Positions 9,981 through 36,307 of a stretch of 37,197 nucleotides of DNA are shown here, piece by piece; the first letter of the stretch is position 1; every line of letters starts with the position of its first letter. The DNA comes from Bacteroidota bacterium (GTDB lineage: Bacteria > Bacteroidota > Bacteroidia > JABEUT01): contig JAKAOA010000012.1 of the NCBI GenBank assembly GCA_021823405.1, positions 1 to 37,197 on the forward strand, in the 5' to 3' direction. The position numbers and the translations under genes are program-made. The notes beneath the pieces were generated by a model. It was not told where the DNA came from. It did not search any database and saw only the letters and a list, made by a program, of their open reading frames with translations.

Positions 9981-10133
9981 ATATACTGCTCGTAAACGAT
10001 TTTGCTACCGTGTGCCGCCTTAGCTATAGCGGTGGTGCAACGCGAAATACTTGTGCAAGCCGTTATACCGAAGCTTTGAATTTGTGGACCTTTACAACCC
10101 GATAGCTATCGGGTTCAATTGTGGTCGGTATAG
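9981..10133 (-). repeat. Dispersed double-palindrome element, copy C
   Basis: Read on the minus strand, this shows the same order of blocks as two other intergenic copies (34239-34380 and 36060-36195): ACAATTGAACCC, a first ATAGCTAT palindrome, a CACAAA block, a second palindrome with TAGCTA, and a closing block resembling ACACGGTnGnAAAAnCGnTTA. Its first palindrome, AACCCGATAGCTATCGGGTT, is perfect. The central part is diverged from the other two copies. It starts directly after the stop of the upstream gene and ends 71 nt before tRNA-Gly. Confidence 0.75.
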
Positions 10134-24432: not shown

Positions 24433-24876
24433 ATGAACCAACAAGACAGTTCCGGAACGGAGAAGTACGAAAACGAACGCACAGTGCAAAGCACTGCGGA
24501 GGAGTGGAAGTTTACCGAGCCCAAAAAAGCGCTAATGATAGAACTTCTTAAGAAATCCTTGGGTGTGGTATCGCTGGCAGCCGAACAGGCAGGGATAGGC
24601 AGACGCACCCACTATAACTGGATTCATACCGACGAACTATATAAAGCCGCCGTTCAAAGTATCAACGAAACAACTCTCGACATGGCAGAATCCAAACTCT
24701 TCGAATACATTAAGCAGAGCGATTTCAAAGCCATCACCTTCCTGCTGCGCTTTAAGGGCAAGTCGAGGGGCTATACCCTGCACAACGAGAACGATATGGA
24801 GAAAAATATAGTCAACTACATTTTTAAGAATCGGGAGAGCTTTGAAGCGTTAATGAAAACTAAATCAAACCCGTAA
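24433..24876 (+). CDS. Orphan terminase-small-subunit-like HTH protein
   Basis: In this 147-residue protein, residues about 30-65 form a homeodomain-like helix-turn-helix (MIELLKKSLGVVSLAAEQAG followed by IGRRTHYNWIHTDELY). A helical segment follows that is typical of phage terminase small subunits (DMAESKLFEYIKQSDFKAIT, then FLLRFKGKSRGY). No large terminase, portal or capsid gene is nearby, so this is not part of a prophage in the window. Such solitary copies are widespread in Bacteroidota; whether they are phage relics or domesticated DNA-binding proteins is unknown. A small inverted-repeat element lies 2 nt after the stop codon. Confidence 0.75.
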   Translation: MNQQDSSGTEKYENERTVQSTAEEWKFTEPKKALMIELLKKSLGVVSLAAEQAGIGRRTHYNWIHTDELYKAAVQSINETTLDMAESKLFEYIKQSDFKAITFLLRFKGKSRGYTLHNENDMEKNIVNYIFKNRESFEALMKTKSNP

Positions 24877-24878
24877 AA

Positions 24879-24926
24879 ATGGACACTTTTTACCGTGAAC
24901 CTGTGCCAATGTGTGCCATTTTTATA
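24879..24926 (-). repeat. Small inverted-repeat element, copy E3
   Basis: On the minus strand this contains GCACAGGTTCA followed after three bases by TAAAAAGTGTCCA, the same core as the two copies at 31673-31731 and 31759-31817. Its ends ATGGCACA and TGTCCAT pair with one bulged base, as the ends TTTGGACA/TGTCCAAA do in the other copies. It starts 2 nt after the stop of the terminase-small-subunit-like gene. Confidence 0.7.
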
Positions 24927-31472: not shown

Positions 31473-31672
31473 CATTATTAGCTCAAAACGTTATAAGGAT
31501 ATATGATAATTACTGATTTACATTGATTTTACCGGATTTTTAACAGCCGTATCGGTACTTGAATGCCGACTGGAAATTGCAGCATTTCCGGTGAAGTAAC
31601 AGAAAAGCCATGTGTACTGTCTTTCGTATGGTGACCAATTCATAATAAAGTTCATAAATACATTACCATATT

Positions 31673-31731
31673 AGTGTGTATATAAATTTTGGACAGTTTT
31701 GCACAGGTTCACTATAAAAAGTGTCCAAATT
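31673..31731 (+). repeat. 59-nt spaced repeat, copy E1
   Basis: Near-identical to 31759-31817 (about four differences in 59 nt). It contains an internal inverted repeat TTTGGACA ... TGTCCAAA around a core GCACAGGTTCA and TAAAAAGTG. The core is shared with 24879-24926. Confidence 0.85.
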
Positions 31732-31758
31732 CTTATTTTCATATCCGCTTCCATATAT

Positions 31759-31817
31759 AGTGTGCATATAAATTTTGGACAGTTTTGCACAGGTTCAGGG
31801 TAAAAAGTGTCCAAATT
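31759..31817 (+). repeat. 59-nt spaced repeat, copy E2
   Basis: Second copy, starting 86 nt after E1, with the same hairpin ends TTTGGACA/TGTCCAAA. Its three bases after GCACAGGTTCA (GGG) resemble the E3 copy (CGG) more than E1 (CTA). Confidence 0.85.
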
Positions 31818-31988: not shown

Positions 31989-32007
31989 GTCAACCCGTTA
32001 AATTACT

Positions 32008-32128
32008 CTTAGCTCATAGCTTATATCTCTTAGTTCATCGCTTATAACTCACACCTTATATCTCATCGCTTATAGCTCATAGTTTAAATCTCATCGCTTA
32101 TAGCTCATAGTTTAAATCTCATAGTTAT
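32008..32128 (+). repeat. Imperfect tandem repeats, CTCATAGCTTATA type
   Basis: This is a run of 12-15-nt units of the form CTCATAGCTTATA, CTCATCGCTTATA and CTCATAGTTTAAAT. The last part contains a perfect 28-nt tandem duplication (32062-32089 and 32090-32117). There are no spacers of unique sequence, so it is not a CRISPR array. Confidence 0.85.
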
Positions 32129-32215
32129 AAAATGCAAATATATACATTTATTATTACATAATACATATTAAGTTAAAATAGTTATCAACAACTTGCCTCA
32201 CTTTGTTCTTAACAA

Positions 32216-32319: not shown

Positions 32320-32495
32320 AAGAGGTAAAAAAGATTAACTTTGGCTTATTGTAGATGTTGTCATTTTATCTTGTGCTTAATTCTATTGCTAAAATACTGC
32401 TGTAATTGGTGTTAGGCAGCGCAAATGAATAAAGCCAATAAAATTAGATGAAAGGATTTAATTGTACATTAAAGAGATATACCGGCACTGATTAC

Positions 32496-32515
32496 ATCCC
32501 GATTGTTATCGGGAT
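32496..32515. repeat. Isolated CCCGAT palindrome at a truncation boundary
   Basis: ATCCCGAT-TGTT-ATCGGGAT is related to the CCCGATAGCTATCGGG cores of the double-palindrome element but has no recognisable flanks of that element. Toxin-like coding sequence starts immediately after it. Confidence 0.55.
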
Positions 32516-32789: not shown

Positions 32790-33110
32790 ATGAAAGAATA
32801 TTTAGCTGCATTTGTTGTTGTTGCGATTTACATAGGTTTTTCTTTACTGTTTCATCGGAAATTTGTGAGCGGTAAACCCATTTGGCTGGTTATACTGCTA
32901 ATAGTAGTATATGGCATAGTGTCAAAGTATTATTTTGACCTCATTAACTATATCGACAATGAATTAGCAGCTATGGGAATCATATATTTCAATTTTGGAA
33001 CTGCTAATCTTAATTTATTATTGGTGTTTTTATTGTGTATTGTTCTTGGGGTGGCTAATATAGCGTATGCGTTAGGGAAACGATACAAGAACTTTAAGTC
33101 ATCGAAATGA
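32790..33110 (+). CDS. Small membrane protein, candidate immunity protein
   Basis: This 106-residue protein has three predicted helices (about 5-23, 30-48 and 72-95) and a Lys-rich C-terminus. The family is not recognised. Its start is 2 nt downstream of the toxin-like remnant stop, the standard toxin-immunity order, which is the only basis for the immunity suggestion. Retention of an intact immunity gene next to a broken toxin would be normal for orphan immunity. Confidence 0.6.
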   Translation: MKEYLAAFVVVAIYIGFSLLFHRKFVSGKPIWLVILLIVVYGIVSKYYFDLINYIDNELAAMGIIYFNFGTANLNLLLVFLLCIVLGVANIAYALGKRYKNFKSSK

Positions 33111-33114
33111 AATA

Positions 33115-33177
33115 ATGGATAGGATAAGTTGCGTCATACTGGACAACGACACGAAGAGCCGCGAGGTTTTGATATAA
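33115..33177 (+). pseudogene. Response-regulator start fragment, copy 1
   Basis: Twenty codons (MDRISCVILDNDTKSREVL followed by Ile and a stop) match the first 19 codons of 33732-33977 with only three nucleotide differences in 57. They resemble the beginning of a LytTR-type receiver domain. Similarity to copy 2 ends abruptly after the TTG codon at 33169-33171. The next 105 nt carry another open fragment (33171-33275, KYYQMIPAMDNTAVNKNVIP) that could be the tail of a further lost gene. Confidence 0.7.
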
Positions 33178-33306
33178 AATACTACCAAATGATACCGGCT
33201 ATGGACAATACTGCAGTGAATAAAAATGTGATACCATTGAAACCAGTAGTTAATGATCAGCTGCAAAAAAAATAGCAGAGAAGCGGATTAATGTTAAATT
33301 AGAGAT

Positions 33307-33708: not shown

Positions 33709-33731
33709 CGATTTAAACAGGAATAAAACTG

Positions 33732-33977
33732 ATGGACAGGATAAGCTGCGTCATACTGGACAATGACACGAAGAGCCGCGAGGTTTTGGCAGAATATTGT
33801 CATTCTATTCCGTATGTGGAAGTTGTAGGCAGTTATCACTCATCCGAGCGATTTGTTGAGTCTTTACTAAATGATACTATTATTGTACGATTAAACGGCG
33901 GTATTTGCCAGCCGACAGAAGGTACTTTTTCGACAGGAATATTTCTTTTTAATGCAATAGAATTAACCGAACATTAA
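33732..33977 (+). pseudogene. Truncated LytTR-type response regulator, copy 2
   Basis: This 81-codon ORF begins MDRISCVILDNDTKSREVLA and continues EYCHSIPYVEVVGSYHSSERFVESLL like the first half of a LytTR receiver domain. It then departs into an unrelated tail (NDTIIVRLNGGICQPTEGTF) without the phospho-acceptor region or a DNA-binding domain. Even the acidic pair is altered (DND rather than DDE). It is probably a decayed gene start joined to other DNA. Confidence 0.6.
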
Positions 33978-33982
33978 TTATT

Positions 33983-34228
33983 ATGCTTAAAAAAGCTTTT
34001 CTTATAGGGCTGCTCATTATTATGATTTCCATAGCAATGGCTCAAGATACAACAATGAATACAAATAATTACATCATTGTTTATAACGTTTTCGGACAAA
34101 TGATTTATCAGACGACCACCCCTGAATTCACACTAAATCTTGACTTAAACTCACAGCCACGAGGGCTTAACCTCTTAAGGGTTCAGAGCAGCGGCAATTA
34201 TTTTACCAAAAAGGTAGTAGTGCAGTAA
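33983..34228 (+). CDS. Mini-protein: signal peptide fused to T9SS-like sorting tail
   Basis: This 81-residue protein consists of a signal peptide (MLKKAFLIGLLIIMISIAMA, cleavage before QD), about eight linker residues, then a segment resembling a type IX secretion C-terminal domain: YIIVYNVFGQMIYQTTTPEF with LNSQPRGLNLLRVQSSGN and a terminal KKVVVQ. No cargo domain lies between. It could be a deletion product of a secreted protein or a genuine small protein. It starts 5 nt after the stop of the preceding fragment. Confidence 0.55.
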   Translation: MLKKAFLIGLLIIMISIAMAQDTTMNTNNYIIVYNVFGQMIYQTTTPEFTLNLDLNSQPRGLNLLRVQSSGNYFTKKVVVQ

Positions 34229-34238
34229 ATTCTATATC

Positions 34239-34380
34239 CATACCGACACAATTGAACACGACAAGCTATCGGATTGCAAATATTCACAAACCCCGTTAAG
34301 CGTAGTTTAGCTAAGAGTGGGAGTCGGACGTCCCTATAGCTATAAGGACACGGTTGTAAAACCGCTTAGGGGCAGCATAT
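34239..34380 (+). repeat. Dispersed double-palindrome element, copy A
   Basis: Blocks in order are ACAATTGAACA, a degenerate first palindrome (CGACAAGCTATCGG), CACAAACCCCGTT, AGTTTAGnnAAGAGTGGG, a second palindrome GTCC-CTATAGCTATAA-GGAC, and the closing ACACGGTTGTAAAACCG block. The 64 nt from 34287 match copy B (36104-36167) at roughly 50 positions. The first and last blocks match copy C. It lies between the toxin-related island and the asnS end. Confidence 0.8.
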
Positions 34381-35881: not shown

Positions 35882-36059
35882 TAGCATTTCCTTATTGTGC
35901 AACTCCGCGGATATGTGGCATGCATTGTATCCGCCTCTGCGCTTTGTCTCCGGCACTATAATTGTTACCGGAATGCATATACCGCCAATGAATGAAAATG
36001 CAAAACCTTCATGTCGGTATGACTGCCAATAGAGGTATTTTGCATTGAGTCAACGCAAT

Positions 36060-36195
36060 TACGGCTACAATGGAACCCAATAGCTATCGGGCTTCACAAT
36101 GCGCAAACCCCGTTCGGCATAGTTTAGTGAAGAGTGGGAGTCGGGCATCCCGATAGCTATCGGGATGCTGTCGCCAAAGACCTTACGGGCATCAC
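36060..36195 (+). repeat. Dispersed double-palindrome element, copy B
   Basis: Same order as copy A: ACAATGGAACCC, first palindrome CCCAATAGCTATCGGG (one mismatch), GCAAACCCCGTTCGG, AGTTTAGTGAAGAGTGGG, then a perfect 24-nt palindrome centred at 36157 (arms GCATCCCG and CGGGATGC around ATAGCTAT), and a diverged closing block ending CTTACGGGCA. It has the best preserved second palindrome of the three copies. Confidence 0.8.
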
Positions 36196-36307
36196 AAAAA
36201 AATAATTTATAAAACAGGTTCTCCGAACGCCTTGGAAATTCACCAAAAGAAAAACCACAGATGGTTAGGGCAGCGGGATTAGTTTTCCAAATTATAACTT
36301 AATTTAT

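Follow-up and report, generated by a model that had tools for sequence, protein, structure and literature searches.

The locus studied here raises the question of why the arms of a palindrome differ between copies and still pair. In the window, the whole 37,197-nucleotide stretch of Bacteroidota DNA that was analysed, a preliminary description had pointed to three copies (A, B and C) of a double-palindrome element in which the second palindrome (palindrome 2) changes in sequence around a TAGCTA core and keeps its arms complementary; selection for a hairpin, a cruciform or a dimeric binding site, rather than for a fixed primary sequence, was proposed. Our results favor, with moderate confidence, another answer, namely that palindrome 2 is probably a copy of a Bacteroidota-wide mobile 18-bp palindromic unit, whose insertion lengthened a MITE-like repeat of one species by a net 15 bp. 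The features on which the argument turns are as follows (palindromes carry no strand).

36057..36196, + strand: copy B, short form of a 143-bp MITE-like repeat, both ends degenerate
36076..36091: palindrome 1 of copy B, CCCAATAGCTATCGGG, one mismatch relative to the unit
36145..36168: palindrome 2 of copy B, GCATCCCGATAGCTATCGGGATGC, a perfect 24-bp dyad made of the 18-bp unit and three stem pairs per side
34240..34379, + strand: copy A, the same 143-bp repeat as B, between two convergent genes
34256..34275: palindrome 1 of copy A, degenerate, one extra base inserted
34328..34351: palindrome 2 of copy A, ACGTCCCTATAGCTATAAGGACAC, pairs 1, 2 and 7 broken, pair 8 compensated (G-C to T-A)
9982..10132, - strand: copy C, sister long form of the repeat, CCGC...GCGG module present, site 2 without the unit
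10098..10113: palindrome 1 of copy C, a perfect CCCGATAGCTATCGGG
10015..10032: copy C palindrome with CCGC/GCGG arms, not the same module as palindrome 2 of A or B
32495..32515: related palindrome CATCCCGATTGTTATCGGGAT, flanked by TATACCGG... and ...GGGGATATA ends

Copies A and B are homologous, since both are copies of one dispersed 143-bp repeat. Their palindromes are real: all 12 pairs of GCATCCCGATAGCTATCGGGATGC are intact in B, and in A, which reads GTCCCTATAGCTATAAGGAC at 34330-34349, 9 of the 12 pairs hold in the 24-bp register 34328-34351. The truly paired differences between A and B number two, at pair 3 (G-C vs A-T) and pair 8 (T-A vs G-C); the arms quoted earlier, 'GTCC' for A and 'GCATCC' for B, consist mostly of identical bases. 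The shared TAGCTA is by itself no commoner than chance predicts, with 10 occurrences in the window against 9.5 expected, whereas the extended palindrome CCCGATAGCTATCGGG has 127 copies at two or fewer mismatches in the 2.8-Mb genome and its reversed control has none. The palindrome at 32495..32515 is possibly a minimal relative of the unit.

The third copy has to be removed from the comparison. C and its sisters L088, L082 and L079 read GCCACCGCTATAGCTAAGGCGGCACGCGGTCGC in the right half, and loci L068, L073, L095 and L126 read, with decay, GCCACCGCTATAGCTAAGGCG-TCCCGATAGCTATCGGGA-CGCGGTCGC, with the 18-bp palindrome in place of GCA after the C module. In these four loci the C module and the CCCGATAGCTATCGGG palindrome stand side by side in one element; therefore, the CCGC/GCGG stem of C, which reads CCGCCTTAGCTATAGCGG on the + strand and contains one wobble and one A-A, is not homologous to the palindrome-2 stem of A and B, and comparing C with them arm for arm is invalid. 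From the same right-half alignment, the GCG/CGC outer pairs of site 2 predate the arrival of the 18-mer. Complementarity outside the core reflects matching letters already present on either side of the unit, and not co-evolution.

The host repeat (consensus TATACCGACCACAATTGAACCCGATAGCTATCGGGTTGCTAAAATTCACAAACCCCGTTAAGCGTAGTTTAGTGAAGAGTGGGAGTTGGGCGTCCCGATAGCTATCGGGACGCGGTCGCAAAATCACTTACGAGCAGTATA) occurs in this genome as about 25 near-full copies of the short form and about 15 of the long form, which have both ends in common and differ in the middle. Copy B has as neighbors asnS, a class II tRNA synthetase gene on the - strand, and an ORF on the + strand. The termini TATACCGACCACAATTGAATTTGC and TATACTGCTCGTAAGTGATTTTGC are imperfect inverted repeats (17 of 24 positions agree) with TATA at the bounds, and the sequence TATA...TATA at both ends would fit a TA duplication. 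The left end has 274 matches at three or fewer mismatches, against 81 for a control. Short, non-coding, multi-copy and bounded by terminal inverted repeats, the element appears from its sequence to be MITE-like, or transposon-like, and amplified in one species. Among the genomes searched it is confined to this species: neither 10 congeners nor 29 other genomes of the class yielded a copy, an empty counterpart of the complete repeat was not found, and a plasmid search returned just two weak partial matches. IS630 was the sole transposase family tested as a partner besides RAYT, and an IS630-type partner was ruled out since no DDE_3 (IS630-type) transposase was matched in the genome.

Other repeats lie nearby in the window. 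Two tandem 60-bp copies at 31672-31817 (93% alike, with ...TGGACAGTTTTGCACAGGTTCA...AAAAGTGTCCA) and an inverted relative at 24875-24926 are probably the ends of another mobile element. A 71-bp repeat at 33110-33180 and 33727-33797 (87% identical) surrounds short ORFs ending in a Por_Secre_tail domain (33983-34228), a stretch that probably represents a broken or duplicated secreted protein gene. At 32006-32131 there is an imperfect 14-nt tandem array of CTCATAGCTTATAT-like words, and solo palindromes elsewhere often lie within word-repeat stretches of this kind.

Covariation among all genomic copies had been proposed as the check. For palindrome 2 the sample was 30 copies (28 distinct) of one genome, and it held 7 compensated cells, 1 other double change and about 66 one-sided changes. 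Column shuffles, which carry a caveat on the relatedness of the copies, gave an expectation of 2.5 compensated cells (P ~0.004), and an independent tool put the cell count at 3/500 and the covariation score at 1/500. Shuffles were used instead of a tree-based null (mean 12, sd 9), which was inflated by events on deep branches. Of the seven compensated cells, three fall at pair 5 and two come from the window copies on which the finding was first based; the signal in this genome rests on about five independent events, two of them picked out beforehand by the preliminary description. Palindrome 1 (78 copies) had 2 compensated cells against 0.7 expected, which is not significant (P 0.16). How far palindrome 1 diverges relative to its flanks was left out of account, as those loci had been selected through matches to the palindrome or to the left end. 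Taken together, these results show a modest excess of compensation atop mostly uncompensated decay.

Could the copies simply have mutated independently, so that the compensations of the window are a coincidence read selectively? The predominance of one-sided changes, the lack of a significant excess in palindrome 1 and the loss of copy C from the comparison count in favor of such ordinary decay. However, palindrome 2 exceeds the shuffles, and the phylum-wide result at pair 2 described below is beyond chance and already contradicts this explanation at the level of the phylum; we regard it as very improbable. Selection on a transcribed RNA hairpin (a regulatory RNA, a terminator or an mRNA 3′ end) that keeps pairing copy by copy would account for the excess of compensated cells, for the folding of copy B, which is better than that of shuffles (z -2.7), and for a unit inside tandem tRNA-Asn genes of Gillisia limnaea whose outer pair is compensated. 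Yet changes are mostly one-sided, and wobble-type changes are no commoner than A-C mismatches in the palindrome pair table of this genome, which argues against selection at the RNA level. Copies A and C fold no better than shuffles on most strands, gene context is not constant (convergent, divergent, next to a tRNA), and no T-run of an intrinsic terminator follows the hairpin (B continues with TGTCGCCAAAG and A with ACGGTTGTAAA). Neither palindrome nor repeat had an Rfam match, two tRNAs being the sole matches in the window at the gathering threshold. An RNA element was rejected on the lack of an Rfam match and of a wobble preference, and the hairpin reading is very unlikely.

The picture becomes clearer across the phylum. 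At least 118 stretches of GTDB genomes carry the 18-mer TCCCGATAGCTATCGGGA without a mismatch, against a chance expectation of about 4 in 257 Gb, and so do 37 stretches of viral contigs. The records listed span Flavobacteriales, Cytophagales, Chitinophagales, Sphingobacteriales, Bacteroidales and Saprospirales; all of those that name a phylum or lower taxon are Bacteroidota, and one is titled just 'uncultured bacterium'. The unit is laid out as T-N-CCGATAGCTATCGG-N'-A. Among the loci listed for 395 genomes of the window's class, pair 2 was compensated at no fewer than 53 loci from 28 genomes, changed on one side at no fewer than 34 from 30 genomes, and doubly changed without complementarity at no fewer than 6 loci; genome counts are the safer measure here, as one genome (G359) holds about 31 copies. 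The inner pair 5 in the same 395 genomes showed 0 compensated, 35 one-sided and 3 double non-complementary changes (Fisher 1e-12 for the contrast with pair 2), and pair 3 in 198 genomes showed 1 compensated and 10 one-sided. In an independent locus set, 9 of 13 two-mismatch variants were perfect palindromes. One-sided decay is similar in size across the pairs tested and symmetric variants occur in force just at the outer pair, which fits propagating symmetric subfamilies and not compensation within a locus. The unit also ends sharply at 18 bp, since the bases just beyond it pair in 15% of cases against 33% expected (142 solo copies, selected as exact 18-mers). These results show that the unit is a fixed 14-bp core, CCGATAGCTATCGG, with symmetric outer arms, and that changes in the core are essentially never compensated. 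Sequence change with preserved pairing is therefore real, modestly in this genome and strongly at pair 2 across Bacteroidota, but the proposal that structure rather than primary sequence is maintained fails on the fixed core.

Two further explanations bear on this pattern. Template switching within quasi-palindromes, in which one arm is copied from the other during replication, is an established mechanism at bacterial quasi-palindromes and would pair one-sided mutations with neither selection nor transposition; the compensated copies B and L126 are indeed perfect palindromes throughout. It should, however, hit every pair, which the counts at pairs 5, 3 and 2 contradict, and it would extend palindromes into the flanks, where bases pair less often than expected, so we consider it unlikely. 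A host dimeric DNA-binding protein conserved in Bacteroidota (a nucleoid, terminus or regulator protein), with copies kept by selection for binding, would agree with a fixed core in distant orders, with symmetric outer pairs and with the location of 91% of solo copies outside long ORFs when about 80% of the DNA is coding. Against this, copy number ranges from 0 to >100 within one genus, position relative to genes is not constant, and copies occur inside leuS, aroA, rnhB, tRNA genes and other repeats; we hold such a role to be quite improbable.

Insertion of the proposed mobile unit is supported by three sites with a readable empty counterpart, at all of which the net gain is 15 bp. Two sites are nested in the 143-bp repeat, where empty and filled forms read TTGAATTTG / TTGAACCCGATAGCTATCGGGTTG at site 1 and GGCGGCACGCGG / GGCGTCCCGATAGCTATCGGGACGCGG at site 2. 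The third lies in a gene of the congener G007 (L134, contig 7) that we take, from its protein sequence, to be leuS (leucyl-tRNA synthetase); here the unit is in frame, adds 15 nt relative to 8 congeners and gives the insert NPDSYREQ directly before FTITVFTTRPDT. Solo copies inside long ORFs (10 of 113) are all in frame and are read as PIAIG or PDSYR, and apparent aroA and rnhB genes are among those that carry them. Among solo copies, 27% lie between direct repeats of 7 nt or more (3.8% expected) and 5.6% between inverted repeats (3.5% expected); the direct repeats thus concern a minority of copies, with no fixed-length target duplication.

In Gillisia limnaea (L266, 1672-2046), at least three tandem tRNA-Asn-like genes have the palindrome as their variable-arm region. 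It reads TCCC...GGGA in the first gene and CCCC...GGGG in the second and third, so that neighboring gene copies differ by a compensated pair; the middle gene is an intact tRNA-Asn by ARAGORN. At four loci (L009 1344, L096 785, L116 228 and L132 649) the palindrome marks the point where two other repeat families (CAAGTCCTCTCCGCCGGATGGCG... / ...GGGCTTTCCGCTTCTATCCCTCAC) meet, as if it were a site at which chimeric repeats arise.

How such a unit might spread can be proposed from its layout. The 14-bp core would be recognized by sequence and the flanking outer pairs would need just complementarity. The unit may be copied or moved as DNA, with an enzyme or dimeric protein that reads both half-sites, or a single-strand hairpin, enforcing symmetry, so that just symmetric variants would seed new copies. 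Variants such as TTCC...GGAA and TACC...GGTA would then form lineages, and single copies would subsequently decay through the usual one-sided mutations. Neither a transposition event nor the machinery for one was seen. RAYT-type (PF01797) loci of the genus have the palindrome nearby in 2 of 20 cases, and a RAYT-driven REP was rejected for this weak association; no copy lies close to either RAYT match of this genome, the stronger match has an internal stop, and RAYT queries had no match in the 118 Bacteroidota stretches listed. The RAYT-type genes with a copy or near-copy within about 250 bp are L283 1269 (G001 contig 59) and L288 1432 (G010 contig 303), which are possible, putative partners of the palindrome.

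A bolder claim, which we put forward tentatively and think possible rather than probable, is that this 18-bp palindrome, autonomous in appearance, ranks with the smallest known mobile DNA units. It would spread across Bacteroidota, add a constant net 15 bp wherever it inserts, be it intergenic DNA, another repeat, a protein gene (in frame) or a tRNA gene, and propagate solely as symmetric variants of the fixed 14-bp core via undescribed machinery. If the unit does move, a palindrome of just 18 bp is mobile throughout a phylum and lengthens genes such as leuS and aroA by five codons, contributing variation in proteins and tRNAs that annotation would treat as ordinary sequence. A core that stays fixed between symmetric outer pairs also yields a testable prediction on what recognizes the unit. 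In addition, a bacterial palindrome can show covariation without any RNA structure behind it, because symmetric variants of a mobile dyad give an identical signal.

In the portions of the open-access literature accessible to our search, no paper carried the two 13-mer parts of the 16-mer, papers with GATAGCTATC did not concern such a repeat, and none described the 18-mer palindrome; within that limit the sequence appears to be new. Comparison with known systems places the two elements differently. Like the MITEs reviewed in PMC10969869 (Correia/NEMIS, RUP, ERIC), the 143-151-bp repeat is non-coding, present in many copies and usually intergenic; it has TATA ends, and its terminal inverted repeats (TATACYG...) are imperfect. 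It differs in having no proven target duplication and, for the IS630 family tested, no related autonomous element or transposase (DDE_3) in the genome, and in harboring a distinct palindromic unit once or twice. HIP1-type octamer palindromes are overabundant in cyanobacteria, and the 18-bp unit is likewise one palindrome overabundant clade-wide; unlike HIP1, it is longer, patchy in copy number and demonstrably inserted relative to empty sites. REP elements are mobilized by RAYT transposases and have GTAG/CGTC-tagged palindromes (PMC3733652). With these the unit shares the form of short dispersed extragenic palindromes in a genus that encodes RAYT-type proteins, but its dyad is perfect rather than imperfect, it has no consistent RAYT neighbor and inserts in frame in genes, and the bases beside 142 solo copies vary, with no conserved GTAG/CGTC tag (CGTC occurs just at site 2 of this genome's repeat). 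Rickettsia palindromic elements (RPE) are likewise palindromic in-frame insertions in unrelated protein-coding genes, as in the ORF-borne solo copies and leuS of G007. The unit differs from them in its length (18 bp with sharp limits, against ~100-150 bp), in its occurrence in Bacteroidota, in being mostly intergenic and in its fixed core with symmetric outer pairs. Taken together, the 18-bp unit works like a palindromic mobile repeat of the REP or RPE kind, yet it fails the defining features of each, standing outside REP by its lack of a tag and of RAYT neighbors and outside RPE by its length.
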